From: Argopecten irradians
Taxonomy: Eukaryota; Mollusca; Bivalvia; Pectinida; Pectinidae
Assembly: GCF_041381155.1 (NCBI RefSeq)
Contig: NC_091134.1
Span: 41,747,338-41,811,337, forward strand
DNA length: 64,000 nucleotides
Direction: 5' to 3'
Every line of letters begins with the position of its first letter. Position 1 is the stretch's first letter. Position numbers and translations under genes: made by a program. Below, piece after piece: positions 34,561 to 62,312 of the stretch. The notes below the pieces were generated by a model, which ran no database searches, was not told the DNA's origin, and worked only from the letters and a program-made list of their open reading frames with translations.

Positions 34561-35043
34561 AGGTAAAGTGTTTCAATCACAGGGACCTGGCACGAAAAAT
34601 TTTAACCAACAGTATACATATATATATGTTATAGTATCAAGGGTATGAACTCGGCGGTCGAGAAAAACGGACCTATTTTTTTAAAACCGTGATTATTTTA
34701 ATAAATGGGTTCTATACAACATTGACGGATATCTTACCTTAAAGAAAAATAATTTATCTTTCCATTGAGTGCTTGATGAACAAAATTGGCCAAGTATTGA
34801 CGAAGTTATGGCTTGATGAATCGGGAAATTTACGAAAATTATGCTAGGTAGACATTTCCCTGTCCGGTCGAAATATCGTCTCGGCTTTAATGGGCTCCTC
34901 AAAAACCAAGCCATAATTTCACAAAATCTACGCTTGTGGTGGTAAACAGTACCCATAACTGTGTTCATCCAAAATCTCCTTTGGAGGTGTCATGACCCGT
35001 ACTTTGTAGAAACTCCATTAAAACATCGTGTAGCTCACTTACT
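34561..35043. other. Unassigned non-coding stretch
   Basis: It contains an AT microsatellite (about 34610-34630). The 91-codon minus-strand frame at 34968-34693 shows no domain. Nothing else is recognised. Confidence 0.4.
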
Positions 35044-36306
35044 TCCCCCAAGGATGTTTGTGGCCAAATTTGGTTACATTCCATTCAGAACTCTATGACT
35101 AGTAGCGATTTAAAGGATTTATCTCTATTTCCCCTATTGGGCCCCGCCCCTCTTGCCCCTGGGGGATCAGAGCCAAAATTTATACAAGTTCTGTTCCCCT
35201 TCCCACAAGGATGTTTGTGGCTAATTTTGGTTACAATCCATGCAGAACTCTAGGACAAGTAGCGTTTTAAAGGATTTACCTCTATTTCCCCTATTGGGCC
35301 CCGCCCCTCCTGCCCCCGGGGGGGTCAGAGCCAAAATATATACAAGTTCTGTTCCCCCTCCCCAAAGGATGTTTGTGGCCAAATTTGGTTACAATCCATG
35401 CAGAACTCTAGGACAAGTAGCGATTTATAGGATTTACCTCTATTTCCCCTATTGGGCCCCGCCCCTCCTGCCCCCGGGGGACCAGAGCCAAAATTTATAC
35501 AAGTTCTATTCCCCTTCCCCCAAGGATGTTTGTGGCCAAATTTGGTTACAATCCATATAGAACTCTAGGACAAGTAGCGATTTATAGGATTTACCTCTAT
35601 TTCCCCTATTGGGGCCCGCCCCTCCTGCCCCCGGGGGACCAGAGCCAAAATTTATACAAGTTCTATTCCCCTTCCCCCAAGGATGTTTGTGGCCAAATTT
35701 GGTTACAATCCTTATAGAACTCTAGGACAAGTAGCGATTTATAGGATTTACCTCTATTACCCCTATTGGGCCCTGCCCCTCCTGCTTGGGGGATCAGAGC
35801 CAAAATTTATACAAGTTCTGTTCCCCTTCCCCCAAGGATGTTTGTGGCCAAATTTGGTTACAATCCATGCAGAACTCTAGGACAAGTAGCGATTTATAGG
35901 ATTTACCTCTATTACCCCTATTGGGCCCTGCCCCTCCTGCTTGGGGGATCAGAGCCAAAATTTTACAGTTCTTTTTTTCCTTCCCCAAAGGATGTTTGTG
36001 GCCAAATTTGGTTACAATCCATGCAGAACTCTAGGACAAGTAGCGATTTATAGGATTTACCTCTATTTCCCCTATTGGGCCCCGCCCCTCCTGCCCCCGG
36101 GGGATCAGAGCCAAAATTTATACAAGTTCTGTTCCCCCTCCCCCAAGGATGCTTGTGGCCAAATTTGGTTACATTCCATGGAGAACTCTATGACTAATAG
36201 TGATTTAAAGGAAATGTTGACGGACAGACGGACGACGGACGGACGACGGACGGACAATGGACGACGGACGCCGCGCCATGACATAAGCTCACCGGCCCTT
36301 CGGTAG
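35044..36306 (+). mobile_element. Pearl/Helentron-like element A (left end missing)
   Basis: It has about seven to eight units of a 157-bp tandem repeat marked by AAGGATGTTTGTGGCCAAAT, CTAGGACAAGTAGCGATTTA and CCCTATTGGGCCCCGCCCCT. An ACGG/GACGGAC microsatellite (36218-36270) and CCGCGCCATGACATAAGCTC follow. It ends within the terminal hairpin (CACCGGCCCTTCGG). The opening segment found in elements B and C is absent. Apparent small proteins here are repeat artefacts. Confidence 0.7.
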
Positions 36307-37946: not shown

Positions 37947-40017
37947 ACAAGAGACCCAGAGGGCCTGTATCGCTCACCTGGTTTGTAATGCCAAGTAATG
38001 TTCTAAATACAGGTTCATTGTTTCTTTTCTGAAGGAATTCGAATATTTACCTCTAATTCACCTACGGGGCCCTACCATCCTGCCCCCGGGGGGTCAGAGC
38101 CAACATTTATAGAAGTTCTGTTCCCCTTCCCCAATGGATGTTTGTGGCCAAATTTGGTCACAATCCATGAAGAACTCTAGGACAAGTAGCGATTTATAGG
38201 ATTTACCTCTATTTCCCCTATTGGGCTCCACCCCTCCTGCCCCCGGGGGGTCAGAGCAAACATTTAAAGAAGTTCTGTTCCCCTTCCCCCAAGGATGTTT
38301 GTGGCCAAATTTGGTCACAATCCATGCAGAACTCTAGGACAAGTAGCGATTTATAGGATTAACCTCTATTTCCCCTATTGGGCCCCGCCCCTCCTGCCCC
38401 CAGGGGGTCAGAGCCAAACTTTATACAAGTTCTGTTCCCCTTCCCCCAAGGATGTTTGTGGCCAAATTTGGTTACAATCCATGCAGAACTCTAGGACAAG
38501 TAGCGATTTATAGGACTTACCTCTATTTCCCCTATTGGGCCCCGCCCCTCCTGCCCCGGGGGGTCAGAGCCAAAATTAATACAAGTTCTGTTCCCTTCCC
38601 CAAGAATGTTTGTGGCCAAATTTGGTTACAATCCATGCAGAACTCTAGGACAAGTAGCGATTTATAGGATTTACCTCTATTTCCCGTATTGGGCCCCGCC
38701 CCTCCTGCCCCGGGGGGGGGGGGGGTCAGAGCCAAACTTTATACAAGTTCTGTTCCCCTTCCCCCAAGGATGTTTGTGGCCAAATTTTTGGTTACAATCC
38801 ATGCAGAACTCTAGGACAAGTAGCGATTTATAGGATTTACCTCTATTTCGCCTATTGGGCCCCGCCCCTCCTGCCCCGGGGGGTCAGAGCCAAAATTTAT
38901 ACAAGTTCTGTTCCCCTTCCCCCAAGGATGTTTGTGGCCAAATTTGGTTACAATCCATGCAGAACTCTAGGACAAGTAGCGATTTATAGGATTTACCTCT
39001 ATTTTCCCTATTGGGCCCCGCCCCTCATGCCCTCGGGGGTCAGAGCCTAACTTTATACAAGTTCTGTTCCCCTACCCCCAAGGATGTTTGTGGCCAAATT
39101 TGGTTACAATCCATGCAGAACTCTAGGACAAGTAGCGATTTATAGAATTTACCTCTATTTCCCCTATTGGGCCCCCGCCCCTCCTGCCCCCGGGGAGTCA
39201 GAGCCAAACTTTATACAAGTTCTGTTCCCCTTCCCCCAAGGATGTTTGTGGCCAAAGGACCTTTGGTTACAATCCATGCAGAACTCTAGGACAAGTAGCG
39301 ATTTATAGGATTTACCTCTATTTCCCCTATTGGGCCCCCGCCCCTCATGCTCCCGGGGGTCAGAGCCTAACTTTATACAAGTTCTGTTCCCCTACACCCA
39401 AGGATGTTTGCGGCCAAATTTGGTTACAATCCATGCAGAACTCTAGGACAAGTAGCGATTTATAGGATTTACCTCTATTTCCCCTATTGGGCCCCGTCCC
39501 TCCTGCCCCCGGGGGGTCAGAACCAAACTTTATACAAGTTCTGTTCCCCTTCCCCCAAGGATGTTTGTGGCCAAATTTTGGTCACAATCCATGCAGAACT
39601 CTAGGACAAGTAGCGATTTATAGGATTTACCTCTATTTCCCCTATTGGGCCCCGCCCCTCTCCTGCCCCCGGGGGGTCAGAACCAAACTTTATACAAGTT
39701 CTGTTCCGCTTCCCCCAAGGATGTTTGTGGCCAAATTTGGTAACAATCCATGCAGAACTCTAGGACAATTAGCGATTTATAGGATTTACCTCTATTTCCC
39801 CTAATTGCCCCTCCTGCCCCCAGGGGGTCAGAGCCAAACTTTATACAAGTTCTGTTCCCCTTTCCCCAAGGATGGCCAAATTTGGTTACAATCCATGCAG
39901 AACTCTATGACTAGTAGCGATTTGTTGACGGACGGACGGACGACGGACGACGGACGACGGACGACGGACGCTGCGCCATGACATAAGCTCACCGGCCCTT
40001 TGGGCCAGGTGAGCTAA
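37947..40017 (+). mobile_element. Pearl/Helentron-like element B (both ends present)
   Basis: The left end is ACAAGAGACCCAGAGGGCCT, then CGCTCACCTGG and a 120-bp unique leader. About twelve 157-bp units of the same monomer as element A follow. A GACGG microsatellite (39925-39970) precedes a right end with hairpin GGCCCTTTGGGCC, AGGTGAG and CTAA. CGCTCACCTGG and CCAGGTGAGC are inverted subterminal repeats. A hairpin just before CTRR and no terminal target duplication fit Helitron-2/Helentron-type non-autonomous elements. The tandem core plus ACGG microsatellite fits the bivalve 'pearl' elements. Confidence 0.75.
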
Positions 40018-42176: not shown

Positions 42177-44277
42177 ACAAGAGGCCCAGAGGGCCTGTAT
42201 CGCTCACCTGGTTTGTAATGCCAAGTAATGTTCTGAATACAGGTTCATTGTTTCTTTTCTGAAGGAATTTTAATATTAACCTCTAAATCCCCTATTAGGC
42301 CCCACCCCTCCTGCCCCTGGGGGATCAGAGCCAAAATTTATACAAGTTCTGTTCCCCTTCCCCCAAGGATGTATTTGTGGCCAAATTTGGTTACATTTCC
42401 ATTCAGAAACTCTACGACAAGTAGCGATTTAAAGGATTTACCTCTATTTCCCCTATTGGGCCCCCGCCCCTCCTGCCCCCGGGGGGCCAGAGCCAAAATT
42501 TATACAAGTTCTGTTCCCCTTCCCCCAAGGATGTTTGTGGCCAAATTTGGGTACATTCCATTCACAACTCTTTGACTAGTAGCGATTTAAAGGATTTACC
42601 TCTATTTCCCCTATTGGGCCCCGCCCCTCCTGCCCCTGGGGGATCAGAGCCAAAATTTATACAAGTACTGTTCCCCTTCCCCCAAGGATGTTTGTGGCTG
42701 ATTTGGTTACATTCCATGCCAAACTTCTATGACAAGTAGCGATTTAAAGGATTTACCTCTATTTCCCCTATTGGGCCCCGCCCCTCCTGCCCCCGGGGGA
42801 TCAGAGCCAAAATTTATACAAGTTCTGTTCCCCTTCCCCCAAGGATGTTTGTGGTCAAATTTGGTTACATTTCATTCAGAACTCTACGACAAGTAGCGAT
42901 TTAAAGGATTTACCTCTATTTCCCCTATTGGGCCCCCGCCCCTCCTGCCCCCGGGGGGTCAGAGCCAAAATTTATACAAGTTCTGTTCCCCTTCCCCCAA
43001 GGATGTTTGTGGCCAAATTTGGGTACATTCCATTCACAACTCTATGACTAGTAGCGATTTAAAGGATTTACCTCTATTTCCCCTATTGGGCCCCGCCCCT
43101 CCTGCCCCTGGGGATCAGAGCCAAAATTTATACAAGTACTGTTCCCCTTCCCCAAAGGATGTTTGTGGCTGATTTTGGTTACATTCCATGCCAAACTCTA
43201 GGACAAGTAGCGATTTAAAGGATTTACCTCTATTTCCCCTATTGGGCCCCGCCCCTCCTGCCCCTGGGGGATCAGAGCCAAAATTTATACAAGTTCTGTT
43301 CCCCTTCCCCCAAGGATGTTTGTGGCCAAATTTGGTTACATTTCATTCAGAACTCTACGACAAGTAGCGATTTAAAGGATTTACCTCTATTTCCCCTATT
43401 GGGCCCCGCCCCTCCTGCCCCCGGGGGGCAGAGCCAAAATTTATACAAGTTCTGTTCCCCTTCCCCCTAGGATGTTTGTGGCCAAATTTGGTTACAATCC
43501 ATGCAGGACTCTATGACTAGTAGCGATTTAAAGGATTTACCTCTATTTCCCCTATTGGGCCCCGCCCCTCCTGCCCTCGGGGGGTCAGAGCCAAAATTTA
43601 TACAAGTTCTGTTCCCCTTCCCCCAAGGATGTTTGTGGCTGATTTTGGTTACAATCCATGCCAAACTCTAGGACTAGTAGCAATTTAAAGGATTTACCTC
43701 TATATCCCCTATTGGGCCCCGCCCCTCCTGCCCCTGGGGGGTCAGAGCCAAAATTTATACAAGTTCTGTTCCCCCTCCCCCAAGGATGTTTGTGGCCAAA
43801 TTTGGTTCCAATCCATGCAGAACTCTATGACTAGTAGCGATTTAAAGGATTTACCTCTATTTCCCCTATTGGGCCCCGCCCCTCCTGCCCCTGGGGGATC
43901 AGAGCCAAAATTTATACAAGTTCTGTTCCCCTTCCCCCAAGGATGTTTGTGGCTGATTTTGGTTACAATCCATGCCAAACTCTAGGACAAGTAGCGATTT
44001 AAAGGATTTACCTCTATTTCCCCTATTGGGCCCCGCCCCTCCTGCCCCTGGGGGGTTAGAGCCAAAATTTATACAAGTTCTGTTCCCCCTCCCCCAAGGA
44101 TGTTTGTGGCCAAATTTGGTTACAATCCATGCAGAACTCTAGGACAAGTAGCGATTTATAGGAAATGTTGACGGACGGACGGACGGACGGACGGACGACG
44201 GACGACGGACGACGGACGACGGACGCCGCGCCATGACATGACATAAGCTCACCGGCCCTTCGGGCCAGGTGAGCTAA
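42177..44277 (+). mobile_element. Pearl/Helentron-like element C (both ends present)
   Basis: The left end ACAAGAGGCCCAGAGGGCCT with CGCTCACCTGG, and the leader, are nearly the same as in element B. About twelve 150-160-bp units follow, many with GATTTAAAGG where B has GATTTATAGG. A long ACGG/GACGGAC microsatellite (44168-44225) precedes hairpin GGCCCTTCGGGCC, AGGTGAG and CTAA. B and C share ends but their units are homogenised separately. Confidence 0.75.
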
Positions 44278-45173: not shown

Positions 45174-46608
45174 ACAAGAGGCCCATGGGCTTTAACAGTC
45201 ATCTGACTATTGGCACAAAGCAACACCTTAAAGAAAATAGTTATGAGAAACAATTAAAGCAATATAACAAAAGAACTCTTTTAATAGAAGAAGTTCAGGA
45301 TCTGATATATTTGATAAATTAGACCATGAATGAAGGTCTCTTGATCCTCACCATGCTACAAGTCCAATATCCATTCTCTAGCCTCTAAGTTATTTACAAA
45401 AGTCCTTTAAAGATTTTAGCCTATTTGATCCCAGTGATCTTGAATGAAGATCAAGATCTTTCCATTGAACAAACTTGGTAGCCTTTCATCCCAGCATGTC
45501 ACAGGCCCAATATTAGTACCCTGGGCCTTTTGGTACTTGAGAAGAAGTCGTTTAAAGATTTTAGCCTTTTGACCCCCGTGACTTTGAATGAGAATCAAGG
45601 TCATTCATTTAAACAAACTTGGTAGCCCTTCATTCCAGCATGTCACTGGCCAAATATCAGGTCTGTAGGCCTCTTGGTTTTTCACAAGAAGTTGTTTAAA
45701 GATTTTAGCCTATCTGACCCCTGTGACCTTGAAAAGAGATCAAGGTCATTCATTTGAACAAACTTATTAGCCCTTCATCCCAGCATGTCACAAGCCCAAT
45801 ATGAGTACACTTGGCCTTTTGGTTCTTGAGAAGTCGTTATAAGATTTTAGCCTTTTTAACCCCTGTGACCTTGAATGAATGTCAAGGTCATTCATTTGAA
45901 CAAATTTCGTAGCCATTCATCCCAGCATGTCACAGGCCAAATATCAGGTCTGTAGGCCTCTTGGTTTTTCACAAGAAGTTGTTTAAAGATTTTAGCCTAT
46001 CTGACCCCTGTGACCTTGAAAAGAGATCAAGGTCATTCATTTGAACAAACTTATTAGCCCTTCATCCCAGCATGTCACAAGCCCAATATGAGTACACTTG
46101 GCCTTTTGGTTCTTGAGAAGTCGTTATAAGATTTTAGCCTTTTTAACCCCTGTGACCTTGAATGAATGTCAAGGTCATTCATTTGAACAAATTTTCGTAG
46201 CCATTCATCCCAGCATGTCACAGGCCAAATATCAGGTCTGTAGGCCTCTTGGTTTTTCACAAGAAGTTGTTTAAAGATTTTAGCCTATTTGACCGCTGTG
46301 ACCTTGAATGGAGATCAAGGTCATTCATTTGAACAAACTTATTAGCCCTTCATCCCATCATATGTCACAAGCCCAATATGAGTACCCTGGGCCTTTTGGT
46401 TCTTGATAAGAAGTTGTTTAAAGACTTTTGCCTTTTTGACCCCTGTGATCTTGAATGGAGATCAAGGTCATTCATTTGAACATTCATCCTCGGTTGTTGA
46501 GAAAAAATCGTTTGAATGAAAAGTCTACGCATGGCGGACAGCTGATGGCGCACGACAACAGATGAAGCATGGTGACAATAGGTCATCCTGACCCTTTAGA
46601 TGACCTAG
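45174..46608 (+). mobile_element. Pearl/Helentron-like element E with a different monomer
   Basis: The left end is ACAAGAGGCCCATGGGCTTT with AACAGTCATCTGA. The units of about 150 bp contain TTTAAAGATTTTAGCCTA, GTGACCTTGAA, GATCAAGGTCATTCATTTGA, CCCTTCATCCCAGCATGTCA and CAGGTCTGTAGGCCTCTTGG, with a repeated two-unit block at 45640-46270. The right end is GGTCATCCTGACCCTTTAGA, TGAC and CTAG, again hairpin plus CTRR. It sits in the DTWD2-like gene downstream of the exon at 46748. Confidence 0.7.
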
Positions 46609-46747: not shown

Positions 46748-49700
46748 CTCAAATATATCGGGTCGATTTTCCAACACTGATATAGCTACAGCAGCAGATT
46801 CCAGCGTAGAGAGAGCAGAGTCTGTGGGCTGTGTCCGGATCACATACTTACTGATAGGGTTGTCATTTATCTGTACCTACAATATCGACAGACAGATCGT
46901 TAATTAGATAATTTATTTGTACCTACAATATCAGACATATTGTTCATTAGATAATTTATCTGTACCTACAATATCAGACATATTGTTCATTAGATAATTT
47001 ATCTGTACCTATAATATCAGAAAGATCGTTAATAAGATAATTTATCTGTACCTACAATATCAGAAAGATCGTTAATTAGATCATTTGTCTGTACGTATAA
47101 TATCAGACATATCGTTAAAGAAGCTCCACCGCTGACAAATAGTATTTTTTCACTATCAAAAACAGCAGCAGACGATTTAGTACTTTTCTTCAGTTACAAA
47201 AGTTACTTACTTTACACAATTACCGCCCTTGAAAAGTTTGAGCTTCTAATTTTGCTTCAAGTTAAAAATATAAGAAAATAATTAATTGCATCCCGAAAAA
47301 ATTCCGTGGCACTATATACTATATGAAATGAAGTACTGATTGCGCATGACCCAAAGGCAAAATAAATTGTTTTATATTATTTTTTGTGTTAATTAGACTT
47401 ATGTATATACGATTAAACACCTATTATTGTTCAAATAATGAATATCATTTATATTGTGTCGGCGATGGAGCATCTTTAATTAAATAATTTATCTGTACCT
47501 ACCATATCAAACACATCGTTAATTAGATCATTTATCTGTACCTATAATATCATACAGATCGTTAATTAGATCATTAGACAGATCATTAATAAGATCATTT
47601 ATCTGTACCTATAATATCAGAAAGATCGTTAATTAGATCATTTATCTGTACCTACAATATCAGACAGATCCTTAATTAGATCATTTATCTGTACCTAAAA
47701 TATCAGAAAGATCGTTAATAAGATAATTCATCTGTACCTACAATATCAGAAAGATCGTTAATTAGATCATTTGTCTGTACCTACAATATCAGAAAGATCG
47801 TTAATTAGATCATTTGTCTGTACCTACAATATCAGAAAGATCGTTAATTAGATCATTTATCTGTACCTACAATATCAGACAGATCCTTAATTAGATCATT
47901 TATCTGTACCTATAATATCATACAGATCGTTAATTAGATCATTAGACAGATCATTAATAAGATCATTTATCTGTACCTATAATATCAGAAAGATCGTTAA
48001 TTAGATCATTTATCTGTACCTACAATATCAGACAGATCCTTAATTAGATCATTTATCTGTACCTATAATATCAGAAAGATCGTTAATTAGATCATTTATC
48101 TGTACCTACAATATCTGGCAGATCCTTAATTAGATCATTTATCTGTACCTAAAATATCAGAAAGATCGTCAATAAGATAATTTATCTGTACCTATAATAT
48201 CAGACAGATCGTTAATTAGGTAATTTATCTGTACCTACAATATCAGAAAGATCGTTAATTAGATCATTTGTCTGTACCTATAATATCAGACATATCGTTA
48301 ATTAAATAATTTATCTGTACCTACCATATCAAACACATCGTTAATTAGATCATTTATCTGTACCTATAATATCATACAGATTGTTAATTAGATCATTAGA
48401 CAGATCGTTAATTAGATCATTTATCTGTACCTACAATATCAGACAGATCATTATTTAGATCATTTATCTGTACCTACAATATCAGAAAGATCGTTAATAA
48501 GATAATTTATCTGTACCTACAATATCAGAAAGATCGTTAATAAGATAATTTATCTGTACCTACAATATCAGACAGATCGTTAATTAGATCATTTATCTGT
48601 ACCTACAATATCAGAAAGATCGTTAATAAGATCATTTATCTGTACCTAAAATATCAGAAAGATCGTTAATAAGATAATTTATCTGTACCTACAATATCAG
48701 ACAGATCCTTAATTAGATCATTTATCTGTACCTAAAATATCAGAAAGATCGTTAATAAGATAATTTATCTGTACCTACAATATCAGACAGATCCTTAATT
48801 AGATCATTTATCACACTTTTGTCTTTGATAATGAACGTTTTGCCCATGCGATACTGGTGCTGTCCGCGCCGTCATATCAGCGCCCGGGCTGATATCACAT
48901 TATGACGTCATAATTTGATATCAGCCCGGGCTGATATCAGTTATCAGCCCGGGCTGATATCAGTTATCGGCCCGGGCTGATATCAGTTATCGGCCCGGGC
49001 TGATATCACGTCATCCGGAGTTTTCAGTCCGGATTTTAGAGTTGCCGCTTCGATTCAGTTTCCTACAGACGATAAGCTGAATAACGGATACAATTTTCAA
49101 TATCAAAATAGCTCTCGGGTAAACGTATTGAGAAAGATATCAGAAATCAGAAATAGTCTGTTTCGTGATGATTTTACTGGAGATAAATGTCTTAACTAAG
49201 ATCAGGTTGAAATGAGTTTTGTCCACAGTGCCGGAAACAAAGCATCGCAATTCACATAATTATAACACAAAAAGAATGTATTCGGTATAAATAAATCAAC
49301 GACATGCGTTCGTCAACAAGAAGAGACACAGGAATAAATTAGACAGTTTAATACATGTACATGCAGTTTTCCCGTCGAATTCATGATTCCTATTTCTTGT
49401 CCGTCGTAAAACCGATCATTCTGAAATGAACCAGCTTTGCTGGAATTTGTTGAACATTATCATTTTAAAGTGATAGTTAACATTCACTAGGATCTTGTTA
49501 ATTTTCCTAAAAAATGTATGTTTCAGCTCGTCCATTGAACCGGGGATTATGTATTTGTCAAAAAACCTATACTGTGTACATGTACATGTAATGAAGTTTT
49601 TCCACTGTTTCAACATTAAATTGGCCTACAATATGACCAGTGGAATATCGGTCACTGATCAATACGTTTTTATACATGTTTTTAAATTGTTAAAATTTCT

Positions 49701-52067
49701 TTCTCCTTTTTTTCAAAATGTGTGATAAAAAGTTTATGATATGTCAATTTTGATATCGCACCCTTTATCAGCCCTTGACCTGATATCAGCCCTCGGGCCT
49801 GCGGCCCTTGGGCTGATATGGCGGTCACGAGCTGATAAAGGGTGCGATATCAAAATTGACATATAATAACCTCTAATTATCTGTACCTACAATATCAGAC
49901 AGACAGATCGTTAATTAGATCATTTATCTGTACCTACAATATCAGACAGACAGATCGTTAATTAGATCATTTATCTGTACCTACAATATCAGACAGACAG
50001 ATCGTTAATTAGATCATTTATCTGTACCTACAATATCAGAAAGATCGTTAATTAGATCATTTATCTGTGTCTGCAATATCAGACAGACAGATCGTTAATT
50101 AGATCATTTATCTGTACCTACAATATCAGACAGATCATTATTTAGATCATTTATCTGTACCTACAATATCAGAAAGATCGTTAATTAGATCATTTATCTG
50201 TACCTACAATATCAGACAGACAGATCGTTAATTAGATCATTTATCTGTACCTACAATATCAGACAGACAGATCGTTAATTAGATCATTTATCTGTACCTA
50301 CAATGTCAGACAGACAGATCGTTAATTAGATCATTTATCTGTACCTACAATATCAGACAGACAGATCGTTAATTAGATCATTTATCTGTACCTACAATAT
50401 CAGACAGACAGATCGTTAATTAGATCATTTATCTGTACCTACAATATCAGACAGATCGTTATTTAGATCATTTATCTGTACCTACAATATCAGACAGACA
50501 GATCGTTAATTAGATCATTTATCTGTACCTACAATATCAGACAGACAGATCATTAATTAGATCATTAATCTGTACCTGGAAAACAGAATCAGATTTAGAT
50601 TGTGTTTCTTTGTATTACAAACAACATTTTGAGATTTTGAGATTGTATGTTTTACATACAACCTTTTAAGATTGTATGTGTTTCTCTGTATTTCATACAA
50701 CCTTTTAAGATTGTATGGGGTTCTTTGTATTACATACAACCTTTTAAGATTGTATGTGTGACTTTGTATTACACAAAACCTTTTAAGATTGTATATGGTT
50801 CTTTGTATTACATACAACATTTTAAGATTGTATGTGTTTCTCTGTATTACGTAAAACCTTTAAAGATTATATGTGGTTCTTTGTATTATATACAACATTT
50901 TAAGATTGTATGTGTGTCTTTGTATTACATACAACCTTTTAAGATTGTATGTGTTTCTCTGTATTACATACGACCTTTTAAGATTGTATATGGTTCTTTG
51001 TATTACCTACAACATTTTAAGATTGTATATGTTTCTTTGTATTACATAAATCTTTTTTTATTTTAAAATTAATAAAGATAAGCTATACATCTTTGACATA
51101 ATATGAGAATATTTTGCAGTATTTATATAGACCCAGTCTGGTATCTTACACTTATATGTATATATGTTTTATACATGTACAATGTACATAATACAATTTA
51201 TTGAAGTGAAATGAGTAGCAGATTTAATTCTAAGGCCCTGTTATGGACAGTTAAGATAGTAAAAGATTTATCACACCTTTCTTGGGTAGGACAGTATTTT
51301 GTTTGCACAATAAATATTCTTTGCCTGTGCCCAGGTGCCGTCCAATATCACCAGGTTATAAGTGTGGTATTGGAGGGGAAGATTCTGGATGTCTGTAGCA
51401 TCATCTCCAGGGTAAAGGAGGAGAGTGTTGGCAGCTTTCAGAATCTCATTAACTTCAGGATACCTAAAACACCAAAATATTTACTTCTTTATTTCCAAAT
51501 CACTGGTGCCAACGATCCACTCCACACATGGGTGTTGACTGTCATCATGAGTAATGGCACTGGTGATAATAACTGCTACAGTACTGAATGCGTCTAACAT
51601 TCCCTCAAACGCGTTCCAGATTCGTTTGCGTTTCTTTTCGTTTAGTTTTGTTTGCGTTTTGTTTGGTCGACCGTTTTTCGTTTGCGTTTCGCGTTTTCGT
51701 TCGTTTGTGTTTTGATTCGTTTGAGCTTTCGTTCTTTTGCATTTGCGTGCGTTTGCGTTCCAATTCATTTACTGGATTTTATTCATTGATATTGGATAAG
51801 GAATGGTTGACTGTGCATGTGTTGGCTAATTAACTAAAAGTGGAGTCCATTGACGGTGTAGGCCAATAAATTTACATGTTCTAGACATTATAGCAAACAT
51901 ACACAAATAAAATTTTAAAAAAAAATTCCTTTTGTATCAAGACATTAATTAAATTTGGTACATGTAACGTACACACATTGTTTAATAGTAAGGATCATTT
52001 GTATACCTTTCTGCTCCAGGTTGATAGGTACATTGTACATGTGCACTTGTTAAACACACCCGCAGGG
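46748..52067 (-). CDS. DTWD2: DTWD2-like tRNA-uridine aminocarboxypropyltransferase (three internal exons)
   Basis: DTWD2-family enzymes transfer the 3-amino-3-carboxypropyl group of S-adenosylmethionine to a D-loop uridine of tRNA (acp3U). Three minus-strand exons splice in consistent phase. 52067-52007 ends ...GAER across a split Arg codon. 51463-51277 (after GTTTTAG, before AAAG|GTGTGA) encodes NTLLLYPGDDATD and YNLVILDGTWAQAKNIYCAN, containing the DTW-family signature DGTW. 46876-46748 (after ATATTGTAG, before GAG|GTAACT) encodes VQINDNPISKYVIRTQPTDS and ALSTLESAAVAISVLE. From memory, the order and spacing follow human DTWD2 closely (LYPG, IDGTWSQAK, YVIRMQPT, LSTLE-AAVALS). The 61-base first exon is the least certain. 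The N-terminal exons and the last exon were not found. DTWD1 or a bivalve-specific DTW protein is a less likely alternative. Confidence 0.8.
47119..47475. mobile_element. 357-bp MITE with TTAA target duplication (piggyBac-like)
   Basis: The ends are AGAAGCTCCACCGCTGACAA and, inverted, AGATGCTCCATCGCCGACAC, imperfect terminal repeats of about 23 bp. TTAA lies directly outside both ends (47115-47118 and 47476-47479). The uninterrupted unit elsewhere in the array reads CGTTAATTAAATAAT, so the empty site is known. No coding capacity. TTAA specificity is typical of piggyBac-type elements; the family is inferred. Confidence 0.8.
48872..49008. repeat. Array of perfect palindromes centred on CCCGGG
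   Basis: TATCAGCCCGGGCTGATA and close variants occur five times. CCCGGG centres lie at 48883, 48925, 48948, 48971 and 48994, the last four exactly 23 bp apart. Between the first and second is another perfect palindrome, ATTATGACGTCATAAT (48899-48914), which contains the cAMP-response element TGACGTCA. Confidence 0.85.
49739..49864. repeat. Perfect 34-bp inverted repeat with nested hairpin
   Basis: Arm 49739-49772 (ATATGTCAATTTTGATATCG and CACCCTTTATCAGC) is the exact reverse complement of 49831-49864. Inside is a second pair, ATATCAGCCC (49783-49792) and GGGCTGATAT (49810-49819), around GGCCTGCGGCC. The inner pair shares its sequence with the palindrome array at the other end of the insert. 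Confidence 0.85.
50640..51050. repeat. 39-bp minisatellite, about ten units
   Basis: CCTTTTAAGATTGTATGTGT, TTCTCTGTATTACATACAA repeats with a 39-bp period from 50662. Because 39 is a multiple of three, the array is open in several frames (for example a 139-codon frame), but those proteins are repeat artefacts. It lies in the same DTWD2-like intron, right beside the splice-site minisatellite. Confidence 0.85.
51604..51770. repeat. GTTTGCGTTTTC-type simple repeat
   Basis: Degenerate repeats of CGTTTGCGTTT with T-rich spacers. Open frames on both strands follow from the composition and are not genes. It is placed in the intron between DTWD2-like exons 51463 and 52007. Confidence 0.7.
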
Positions 52068-53949
52068 CTCGATAAAGTGGAATGAAGGGTTACAGACAGG
52101 TGTGAACTCACACCACAGGACGTCGTACTGCTGGTCATAATAACTCACTGGTGCATACATTATAAAATCAAAGTACTCAAAGTACTGCAAATACAACGCA
52201 GCATGCAGATACAGAAAAATTAGAATGAAATTAAATGAATTTGATGAATTCAGTACTGCCATCAAGTCCTGTTGATTATATGACATTTGATACACCACTC
52301 TGGTTTTGTGAAAAAAATAATTAATTCTTGATGAATATTTGACCAATCCGTATAAAAACATCAAGCTGTTAGGCAGATGCACCATTCTCCAGAAAACAGA
52401 TACTGTAGGTCCTGGAAAATTAAGTTTGATTGAAGGCTTTTTGCATATCTATCAGCAGTCTAATGTCTGGTGGTAGGGTGACCGACTTTGATATCAATTA
52501 TTTCAAGAATATTCAACTAATGTATATAATTTGTTTGAAATTCTTCTTAATAAAAAATTCCTACATAAATTAAACAATTTCAAAATAAAGAAAGCATTTA
52601 AGTCTTATATTCATCAAAAATGAGTTTTTGTCCTACACTCTTGACTTTTGTGTTGCACAGTTATGTATGTATTGTGAAACCATGCACACATGAGGGCAGC
52701 CTTATCAATAATCATTTTAAAACATAACTATAATGTACACAGAAAGAAACTCAGATAAGTTTACTTTTAACTCTGAGATCTAGATCTGTAAGCCTTAAGT
52801 AATTCCAATTTGTATTGTCATTAACAGTGTTTATGTAAGTTGGACATAGGAGTGTGTACACATGTAGAGTAGGTGTGTGTATATTCTACACAGAGGCTGT
52901 GTGAATTCCACTAATCAGAAAGCAGGCTTCCCATGACTGCATACACACAAATGCAGTAATGGGAATGCCACATTTTGATTGGTCCGAAGGAGGAGTCACA
53001 ACCAGATGTTGATTGTATGTACATGTATACAGATGTAGACACAGTTAGGGAGTATGTGTGTGTATATTATACAGAGGCTGTGTCAATTCCACCAATCATA
53101 AGGCAAGCTTCCCATGACAGCATACTGCAGTAAAGGGAATGCAACATTTTGATTGGCCAAAAGGAATATTGTTCAATAAATAGGGATTTTATGAATGGAA
53201 GTTTATGAATGGAATGGTTTAAGAGGTCACCACTAGATGTCATTATAGGGCATGTCCTACTCAGTTCTACACATCATGGTAAACCGGATAGCATTAATAC
53301 AAACGCTAGTCGCATTGTATTAAAAATCATATTCGACTCAGCACTGTAAGCATTGGATCACATTATTTTCTAGTGATACACACACTATTTTGATAATAAA
53401 ATAACACAATTAATAATATCTCAACCATCGCTTAATATAGTATTTAAAATGAATATTTTTTTTTACATATTTTATGAAAAATTAAGAACGGACCAAAGTC
53501 AATAGATATTAAATCATAATTGACGTATATATATACATAATCGTACAACATGAACTGACAGTTGATACATTCAACTGTATTTCTGTATTTATACACGTAT
53601 TCCTCAATGATATGATTGATCATTGTATTTTTGGTATGCGTGCACGTTGTGACTTAATACCTAGGTCATGCTTGAATGCCATTCTGCGTACATTAGATCT
53701 AGTGCTCAGGCACCCGGACTGATATTGTATAATGTTTTTTAATTCTGTTTCTCTTACGCAAGGCTGGGTGATTTTATAAATATTTATTAGAACCATAGCA
53801 AATACAGTCTATGGTCACTTGGGTTAGGAAGCGATAGTACAATGTATATGTATACTTATATAATTAGGACCTAGGATGATGTGAAATACTTAGGACCTAG
53901 GATGACTTATTTCACAATTGAATCATCTTTTTATCTCTCTTACCCAATC
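52068..53949. other. Upstream region of the DTWD2-like exons, no further exon found
   Basis: Earlier DTWD2 exons (with the HPAEE-type motif) should lie to the right but were not found. A 111-codon minus-strand frame (52385-52050) ends inside the 52007-52067 exon in another frame. A tandem duplication lies at 52860-53170; otherwise nothing is recognised. Confidence 0.4.
52860..53170. repeat. Tandem duplication of about 175 bp
   Basis: GTAG(A)-C(A)-AGT-AGG...TGTGTGTATATT, CAGAGGCTGTGT-AATTCCAC, GGCTTCCCATGAC and CATTTTGATTGG occur at 52868-52985 and again at 53030-53162. Each copy has ATTTTGATTGG, an inverted CCAAT-type motif. Confidence 0.65.
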
Positions 53950-61019: not shown

Positions 61020-62312
61020 TATGATATTGAGCCTGTGGCATGCTGGAATGAAGGGCTACCAAGTTCGTTAAAATGAATGACCTTGATCTTCATTCAAGGT
61101 CACAGGGGTAAAATAGGCTTAAATTTTTAAACAACTTATTGTGGATAACTTAGAGGCCTAGCGACATGATATTTAGCCTGTGGCATTCTGAAATGAAGGG
61201 CTGCCAAGTTTGTTAATATGAATGACCTTGATTTTCATTCAAGGTAACAGGGGTCAATTAGGCTAAAATCTTTAAACGATACTTGTGAATACCTAAGAGG
61301 CCTGTGAATTGGATGAATGGCTACCACGTTTGTTCAATTAAATGACCTTGACCTTCATTTAAGGTCACATGGGTCAAATAGGTTAATATCTTTAAACAAC
61401 TTCTTGTGAATAACTAAGTGGCCTAGAGACCTGATATAGGGCCTGTGGCATGCTGGGATAAATGGCTAATAAGTTTGTTCAAATAAATTACCTTTAACTT
61501 CATTCAAGGTCACAGGGGTCAAAAAGGTTTAAATATTTAAATGCATTCTCCTCAAAAACCAGAATCCCCAGGGAACATATATTGGGCATGTAGCATGATG
61601 TGATGAAGGGCTACCTAGTTTGTTCAAATGACCTTGATCTTCATTCAAGGTCACATGGGTCAATTAGGCTATAATCTTTAAACGACTTCTTTTCAATAAT
61701 TAATAGGCCTAGCGACATGATATTTGGCCTTTGACATGCTGGGATGAATGGCTAACACGCTTGTGCAAATAAATGACATTCACCTTCATTTAAGGTCATA
61801 GGGGTCAAATAGTTAAAATTTTAAACAAGTTCTTGTGCATAACTAAAAGACCTAGAGACCTAATATTTGGTATCTGGCATGCTGGGATGAAGGGCTAATA
61901 GGTTTTGTTTAAGTCAATTACCTTCATCTTCATTAAAGGTCACAGGGTTCGAAAAGGCTAAAAGCTTTGAACCATAATGTCCATTGTAGTGATACTGGGC
62001 ATGTAGAATGTTGGGCTGAAGGGCTAACAAGTTTGTTCAAATGAATGACCTTGCCTTTCATTCAAGATCACAGAAGTCAAAAAAGTATTTAAACAACTTC
62101 TTGTGTAAATAAGTAAGAGTCCTAGAGACTGGATATTGAATTGTAGCGTGGTGGGGATCAAGGGACCTTCATTCATGGGCTAATTCATCAAATATATCAG
62201 AACATGAACTTCTTCTATTAAAAGAGTTATTTGTATTGCCTTAATTGTTTCCCACTACAATATTTTTTATTGACAATAGTCAGATGACCGTTAAGGCCCA
62301 TGAGTATCTTGT
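61020..62312 (-). mobile_element. Pearl/Helentron-like element F, reverse orientation, 3' end lost
   Basis: About eight diverged units contain GACCTTGATCTTCATTCAAG, GTCACAGGGGTCAAATAGGC, TTTAAACAACTTCTTGTGAA and GGCATGCTGGGATGAAGGGC, the reverse complement of element E's monomer. The right edge, CAGATGACCGTTAAGGCCCA then TGAGTATCTTGT, is the inverted counterpart of element E's left end. The left edge is abrupt with no hairpin or CTRR. Confidence 0.65.

Follow-up and report, generated by a model that had tools for sequence, protein, structure and literature searches.

The DTWD2-like locus

The window analysed here is a stretch of 64,000 nucleotides from the bivalve Argopecten irradians (NC_091134.1, positions 41,747,338 to 41,811,337). 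On its minus strand, two exons jointly match the Pfam DTW domain (PF03942, E=4.8e-23), and by this domain the encoded product is probably an enzyme of the tRNA-modifying type. Pfam supports the DTW domain alone, and the gene is presumably DTWD2. The intron between the two exons holds a tandem array that adjoins the downstream exon. The features are as follows, in window positions:

51277 to 51463, minus strand: exon A of the DTWD2-like gene, ending AAAG at the donor GTGTGA, with translation YPEVNE...LSYPRK
50601 to 51056: separate 39-bp tandem array of a different monomer, in the same intron
50576 to 50593, minus strand: far-edge acceptor TCTGATTCTGTTTTCCAG, the proposed original 3' splice site, with 11/14 pyrimidines
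about 46877/46883 to 50575/50577, minus strand: acceptor array of 49 extra 43/47-bp units with TTGTAG followed by GTACAGATAAATGA, interrupted by two inserts
about 48813 to 49876: insert with GATATCAGCCCGGGCTGATATC palindromes, within the array, in the window copy only
about 47119 to 47470: MITE-like insert with inverted ends (by eye), within the array, common to all three copies of the locus
46877 to 46882, minus strand: TTGTAG, presumed true acceptor of exon B, adjoining the coding frame
46748 to 46876, minus strand: exon B, by translation, phase 0, beginning GTACAGATAAATGA and VQIND...

The two inserts and the separate 39-bp array were absent from an earlier note on this DNA, and Rfam at gathering scores gave no match anywhere in the window. 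The exon B junction reads GTA CAG ATA AAT GAT..., with VQI as its first three codons. These residues lie inside the DTW domain and within an ungapped stretch aligned to 9kyt, a solved tRNA-uridine aminocarboxypropyltransferase, in a weak match (E=0.26). A second DTW gene (DTWD1-like, on contig C4) has VEL close to the start of the corresponding exon.

Anatomy of the acceptor array

The array sits between DTW-domain exons A and B and runs from 46877 to about 50577, directly upstream of the exon start at 46876, as the earlier note had placed it. A 17-mer across the unit boundary gave 50 matches at up to 3 mismatches, exclusively on one strand, against 0.25 expected by chance at the same threshold and a maximum of 3 in 100 shuffles. 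The true acceptor accounts for one of these matches, which leaves 49 extra units, in keeping with the roughly fifty copies first described; an exon-start copy at the far edge (50575) escapes the 17-mer and is additional to the 49. Anchors are mostly spaced by 43 (32 times) or 47 bp (11 times), which bears out the unit sizes given before, with a spacing of 67 occurring three times. The repeat unit spans the exon-intron boundary, with TTGTAG running straight into the opening 14 bases of the exon, and over these 14 bases (13 had been counted earlier) exon B and the array unit are identical. AG/GTAC is kept, with AGGT in register, in 47 of the 49 extra units (48 of 51 anchors with the true site, a set containing one chance match within an insert), and the units could therefore serve as donor and acceptor alike.

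The presumed true acceptor has 8 pyrimidines in the 14 upstream positions, a value exceeded by 53 of the 198 AGs scored in the intron and by 38 of the 50 array anchors. The far-edge acceptor ranks joint top with four array units among the same 198 and is directly followed by the exon-start copy GTACAGATTAATGA, although its pyrimidine tract could be chance. The same far-edge layout is found in both other copies of the locus, on contig C10, with TTTGTTCCAG in C10b.

It had been proposed that splicing to an upstream unit would soon meet stops, such as the TGA in GATAAATGA. That TGA is out of frame, because the junction is in phase 0, and so is not one of them. The general expectation held: among the 48 of 49 extra units tested (those with GTAC), 47 reach a stop before exon B, 12 to 50 codons in, while the nearest decoy, 46 nt upstream, runs into exon B out of frame. 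Reading from the far-edge site meets a stop after 12 codons.

Copies in the genome

In two genome searches, whose counts are lower bounds, the array monomer was found solely at three DTWD2-like loci. Tandem copies of it at unrelated loci, which by the earlier note would have refuted its reading, were not found in these searches, and the searches give no support to a dispersed satellite or introner-like element. The assembled copies carry 49 (window), 16 and 18 (C10) extra units, and may be alleles, paralogues or assembly duplicates. Their exons and upstream flank are 99-100% alike, indels aside. The two C10 copies lie at inverted places, and C10b has many small indels within and below the array. 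All three copies have the array with identical edges and the same internal MITE-like insert (99.1% identity between window and C10a, 83% with C10b), whereas the palindrome-bearing insert is unmatched in the two C10 stretches compared. The exon corresponding to the first part of the DTW profile occurs on C10 only, the lone match on C1, at 32.85 Mb, being weak (E=0.1); C1 or C10 may therefore hold misplaced pieces.

Other boundary arrays

Donor-side arrays adjoin exons elsewhere in the genome. The DTWD1-like exon on C4 is adjoined by 37 successive 40-bp units of the form GTAAGT...CAG. Four arrays of the motif CAGGTAAGT were examined, and two of them adjoin, on the donor side, Pfam-confirmed exons of a mitofusin (PF04799, E=4.7e-9) and a cyclase (PF00211, E=1.5e-7). 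The third is near an open-frame exon that has its own donor array and is without a Pfam match, and the fourth has no exon in its flank. Two further arrays from the motif searches, viewed by eye, showed no evident exon. The AG/GT columns show no significantly higher conservation than the remaining columns in the DTWD2-like array (P 0.18, 48 of 49 units used), nor in the four arrays combined (P 0.08; DTWD1-like 0.05 over 37 units, mitofusin 0.16 over 28 of 31 spacings, cyclase 0.64 over 14 of 18 spacings).

Raw genome-wide matches, dominated by a few large arrays, numbered 8740 for AGGTAAGT (reversed 886), 3353 for CAGGTAAGT (reversed 90) against 1868 for its one-base control CAGATAAGT (reversed 5), and 1445 for AAGGTAAGT (reversed 187) against 246 for its one-base control AAGATAAGT (reversed 83). 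The T-rich acceptor motif TTTTCAGG showed no genome-wide excess (388 vs 836 reversed). Among the first 100 matches listed for each, distinct arrays counted by eye were 4 for CAGGTAAGT in the first 6.5 Mb of C1 and 5 for CAGATAAGT over the listed 75.5 Mb of C1, a 9-fold difference in density (P 0.0035) that assumes both strands to be covered to 6.5 Mb, and a 7-fold one (P 0.02) when the last array of the CAGGTAAGT list is left out. The matches do not come in plain position order: one list has forward matches only and lacks two reverse arrays, at 0.34 and 0.49 Mb, that two other lists include. If the forward matches of the whole contig came first, the CAGGTAAGT excess would shrink to about 1.5-fold. 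A combined density test with AAG motifs (P 1e-4 and 0.004) was withdrawn, as it made the same assumption on order. A genome-wide excess of boundary arrays is hence unsettled: raw counts lie above the controls, and array density is uncertain.

Relation to known systems

Introns have reportedly arisen from tandem arrays in human genes, with splicing signals inside the arrays (Zhuo et al. 2007). The earlier note knew of no satellite built at this scale from a functional splice acceptor, but the lancelet 'mirages' precede it (PMC3087553; also PMC3902484). These are tandem duplications of exon-intron boundaries, described for Adh (Adh3), the globins BflGb6 and BflGb9, TnC and PGBD5, and reported there not to disturb regular splicing or yield aberrant mRNA (PMC3087553, PMC3902484). 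Like them, the DTWD2-like array consists of minisatellite-like tandem copies across an exon-intron boundary, with AG/GT in many units. Mirages occur on the donor or the acceptor side, the latter in BflGb6 (PMC3087553), and the DTWD2-like array is acceptor-side. Their unit number varies between haplotypes, BflGb6 having 6 and 3 units of 150-160 bp in its two; here the three assembled copies differ, and the 49 extra units of the window copy measure 43/47 bp. Mirages belong to the lancelet, the present array to a bivalve, in another phylum. Among the mollusc papers listed, no boundary minisatellite was apparent by title or abstract opening; the parts available of a paper on abalone TSSK1-like describe a 27-bp intronic minisatellite and mention no boundary, and those of a Lucina haemoglobin paper hold no boundary minisatellite.

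In human, AGGT can function as donor and acceptor alike, and human introns that lie in tandem repeats show an 8.4-fold enrichment of introns spliced at such dual sites (PMC10809524). As in UBC (PMC10809524), AGGT occurs once per unit and units could be skipped as introns; the UBC repeats are coding, however, whereas those of the DTWD2-like gene are intronic. In the Rogers model, introns are gained via tandem duplication of AGGT segments, with ATP2A1 and potato RdRp as examples (PMC4974935). In both cases tandem duplication provides GT and AG or carries the parental splicing signals, but the DTWD2-like intron would have pre-existed, with its boundary multiplied (PMC4974935).

Proposed origin and working of the array

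We regard the array, with a probability of about 0.75, as a 'mirage': a minisatellite of an exon boundary, on the acceptor side, whose origin and working we infer as follows. The exon boundary is its most likely source, in agreement with the earlier reading as an amplified acceptor, because the monomer was found at DTWD2-like loci only in the searches made, VQI belongs to the DTW domain, and the far edge has a strong acceptor with an exon-start copy. VEL in the DTWD1-like exon, the donor-side arrays at the DTWD1-like, mitofusin and cyclase exons, the lancelet precedent and the double role of AGGT in human also speak for this view. The original acceptor, TTTTCCAG/GTACAGAT..., would have gained a duplicated exon start and about 30 bases of new sequence (exon start, new sequence, exon start; E-U-E). 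The E+U unit, which by chance contained a branch-point-like TTAAC, TTGTAG and AG/GT, would then have expanded via slippage or unequal exchange. The copy proximal to exon B joins in frame, and its choice would most likely follow from definition by the exon body. The remaining units would be mostly silent, or tolerated if used, since each begins with GT and ends with AG, and removal of whole units, we propose, would leave the mRNA unchanged. Good donors follow GTRAGT; GTACAG is a poor donor, and self-removal of units may therefore be inefficient.

The data bear out the anatomy, the restriction to DTWD2-like loci in the searches made, the differing lengths of the three assembled copies, and AG/GT in nearly all units. 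Against the favoured view, AG/GT columns are not significantly protected and T-rich acceptor arrays show no genome-wide excess. The choice of the exon-proximal site must overcome its having fewer upstream pyrimidines than most decoys, and plain tandem duplication alone does not give the E-U-E layout, so that a filler step must be assumed.

The units might instead rival the true acceptor, as in the tuning suggested by the earlier note: splicing to decoys would lead to premature stops, and array length would set the amount of productive mRNA. Such tuning would fit the branch-like TTAAC and TAG of the units, the pyrimidine advantage of most of them over the true site, the stop or frameshift that ends all 48 decoys tested and the array length that differs between assembled copies, and a C. 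elegans minisatellite has been linked with multiple alternative splicing (PMC4039745). It is unlikely all the same, given the lack of significant conservation in the AG/GT columns and the lancelet reports of mirages without aberrant mRNA (PMC3087553, PMC3902484). Slightly less probable is ratchet splicing, in which the far-edge acceptor would be used first, regenerating an AAAG/GTACAG donor from which the array would be removed in at least one later step. Few acceptors in the intron score as well as the far-edge one, AG/GT stands at the far edge as well as in 47 of the 49 extra units, and human introns are known to use AGGT in both roles; GTACAG, however, is without the +4A and +5G of good donors.

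Somewhat less likely still is that faulty assembly accounts for most of the array length and copy number. The near-identity of three copies, two of them inverted on C10, the small indels of C10b and the profile-start exon restricted to C10 speak for it. Array, edges and internal insert are nevertheless common to all three copies, and the existence of the array is therefore not an artefact, while its length may be. Very improbable is a mobile or dispersed satellite that inserted at the exon and supplied its acceptor, in the manner of an introner: the exon-start copy at both array ends does resemble a target-site duplication, and further repeats and inserts lie in and around the array, but the monomer has no copy beyond the three loci in the searches described.

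Significance

An acceptor-side boundary minisatellite has already been described in the lancelet, and the DTWD2-like array would add a further example. It is doubtful, but conceivable, that self-erasing satellites form a large class in the genome, started at exon boundaries and made of units with GT at one end and AG at the other, which would grow freely as splicing removes whole units, some of them (DTWD2) shifting the working acceptor from an old strong site to the last unit. Where a single true splice site lies next to tens of near-identical ones, nature offers an experiment on spliceosome choice between equivalent sites; such arrays also test whether repeats of AG/GT units are tolerated because they can be spliced away. 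If frequent in the genome, boundary minisatellites would not be peculiar to lancelets and may contribute more widely to the growth and gain of introns.

The DTWD2-like gene and its copies

The window is part of contig C1 in a genome of 846 Mb. Two of its exons, A and B, jointly match Pfam DTW (E=4.8e-23) and belong to a gene here called DTWD2-like, as in the earlier note:

51463-51277, minus strand: exon A
46876-46748, minus strand: exon B

In this copy the two exons are separated by a 4400-base intron that ends in TTGTAG, after which exon B starts GTACAGATAAATGA. The first codons of exon B, VQI, fall within the DTW domain and are ungapped in a weak alignment (E=0.26) to a solved tRNA-uridine aminocarboxypropyltransferase. 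Two further copies, C10a and C10b, are found on contig C10 in inverted order, approximately 150 kb apart, and are near-identical to the window copy in the exons and upstream flank:

C10:409103-419417, plus strand: DTWD2-like copy
C10:564683-575561, minus strand: DTWD2-like copy

Compared with the window, the two C10 copies show 99.4 and 100% identity in exon A, 99.2 and 99.6% in the flank upstream of it, and 97.5 and 97.4% in a stretch with a 39-bp array, and the alignment ends at 53905 with both. C10b looks decayed or else poorly assembled, because its exon B is gapped (94.6% identity, against 100% in C10a), as is the stretch downstream of the gene (79% with many gaps, against 99%). C10 alone carries the exon that corresponds to the beginning of the DTW profile, in two places, the sole match on C1 being weak and far away, and hence the window copy is incomplete on the 5' side in this assembly. 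The three copies may be alleles, recent duplicates or misplaced contigs.

Other repeats also occur in the window. Arrays of 157 bp in tandem, followed by GACG-rich tails (35042-36212, 38045-39923 and 42275-44163), resemble bivalve pearl elements, and one family of 145-bp tandem arrays flanks the gene region on both sides in opposite orientation (45364-46482 and 61311-61972).

Anatomy and proposed origin of the array

A 17-mer over the boundary between the intron and exon B has 50 matches, all on a single strand, against 0.25 expected; as one of these is the true site, 49 are extra units (46877 to ~50577). Their spacing is 43 or 47 bp in most cases, and 47 of the 49 contain AG/GTAC. The C10 introns, of 1887 and 2042 bases, hold 16 and 18 extra units, respectively. 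Two inserts break the window array, one common to the other gene copies and one private (48813-49876), the latter not found in the fetched C10 stretches. By eye, GATATCAGCCCGGGCTGATATC palindromes recur in the private insert, which also has an inverted repeat at around 49740-49865.

In two whole-genome searches, using the 47-bp and 43-bp forms and giving counts that are lower bounds, the monomer was found at three places only, the same three that carry exons A and B. Tandem monomers at unrelated loci, which the earlier note had named as evidence against its reading, were not found in these searches. Because the monomer was found only at DTWD2-like loci, VQI is part of the DTW domain, and a second DTW gene, on contig C4, has VEL within a few residues of its exon start, we take the block common to the exon start and the units to have been coding sequence first. 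The far edge of the array (50575) starts TCTGATTCTGTTTTCCAG/GTACAGATTAATGATC, and its acceptor shares the highest pyrimidine score of the 198 scored intron AGs, 53 of which outscore the present true site (46876). The far-edge site thus probably represents the old acceptor, with the working acceptor having shifted from there to the last array unit. Since copies of the exon start lie at both array ends, a first duplication with filler sequence would have preceded expansion.

Predicted effects on splicing

Exon A is phase 0, and joining it to any of 48 tested units leads to a stop after 12 to 50 codons, reached from the nearest unit only past a frameshift into exon B. The TGA in GATAAATGA, named as a stop in the earlier note, is out of frame. 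Read from GT to AG, each unit resembles an intron, with GTACAG followed by a branch-like TTAAC and then TTGTAG, so whole units could be removed without trace. By consensus, GTACAG is a poor donor. Conservation of the AG/GT columns does not significantly exceed that of other array columns. In being removable as introns, the units would resemble the dual-specific AGGT sites described for human tandem repeats (PMC10809524).

Boundary arrays elsewhere in the genome

The C4 DTW gene, which we assume to be DTWD1-like, was met through a family search and not selected for repeats. Its exon is in the expected place, with a DTW match of 24.1 bits (below the curated cut-off), and ends GACTCAAAG. Next to it come 40-bp units GTAAGT...CAG, at least 37 in succession and continuing as far as the fetched sequence reaches, a donor-side counterpart of the acceptor-side DTWD2-like array. 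The donor arrays, all on the minus strand, are:

C4:12005701-12008922: L037, DTW-gene exon and donor array of 40-bp units GTAAGTCATCTCAAGGATTGTACTGCCTATAGACTCACAG
C1:6462000-6469400: L075 and L074, mitofusin exon and donor array
C1:5147600-5151000: L073, guanylate/adenylate cyclase exon, with exon end and donor in 48-bp units
C1:4914900-4917300: L072, open-frame exon ending ...DLPREEFSVLPHTR, then 30-bp units GTAAGAGTTCTCTGTACTCCCACACACTAG

The mitofusin array extends over several kb, its 42-bp unit comprising the last 35 bases of the exon plus GTAAGTC, while the open-frame exon of L072 has no Pfam match. Among four CAGGTAAGT arrays with fetched flanks, two adjoin Pfam-confirmed exons, a third lies close to a further exon that has an array of its own, and the fourth shows no exon.

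Raw counts of triple AG/GTAAGT motifs, which are dominated by large arrays, lie above all controls used (3353 vs 1868 and 90; 1445 vs 246 and 187; 8740 vs 886). A genome-wide excess of boundary arrays is a lead rather than a result, because of this dominance, because the count of distinct arrays depends on the order of match listing, itself uncertain, and because no excess is seen for T-rich acceptor motifs (388 vs 836 in the control).

Relation to lancelet mirages

Tandem duplications of exon-intron boundaries in lancelet have been named mirages, and RT-PCR suggested that regular splicing was unaffected by them (PMC3087553, PMC3902484). They are a precedent for the present array, of which the earlier note knew no described case at this scale, and include an acceptor-side example, BflGb6, whose two haplotypes carry 6 and 3 units, each 150-160 bp long (PMC3087553). 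The DTWD2-like array, in a genome whose repeats suggest a bivalve, has more copies than BflGb6 (49 extra units), and, as lancelet mirages are likewise tandem boundary duplications, one of them acceptor-side, it is a further member of a kind already described.
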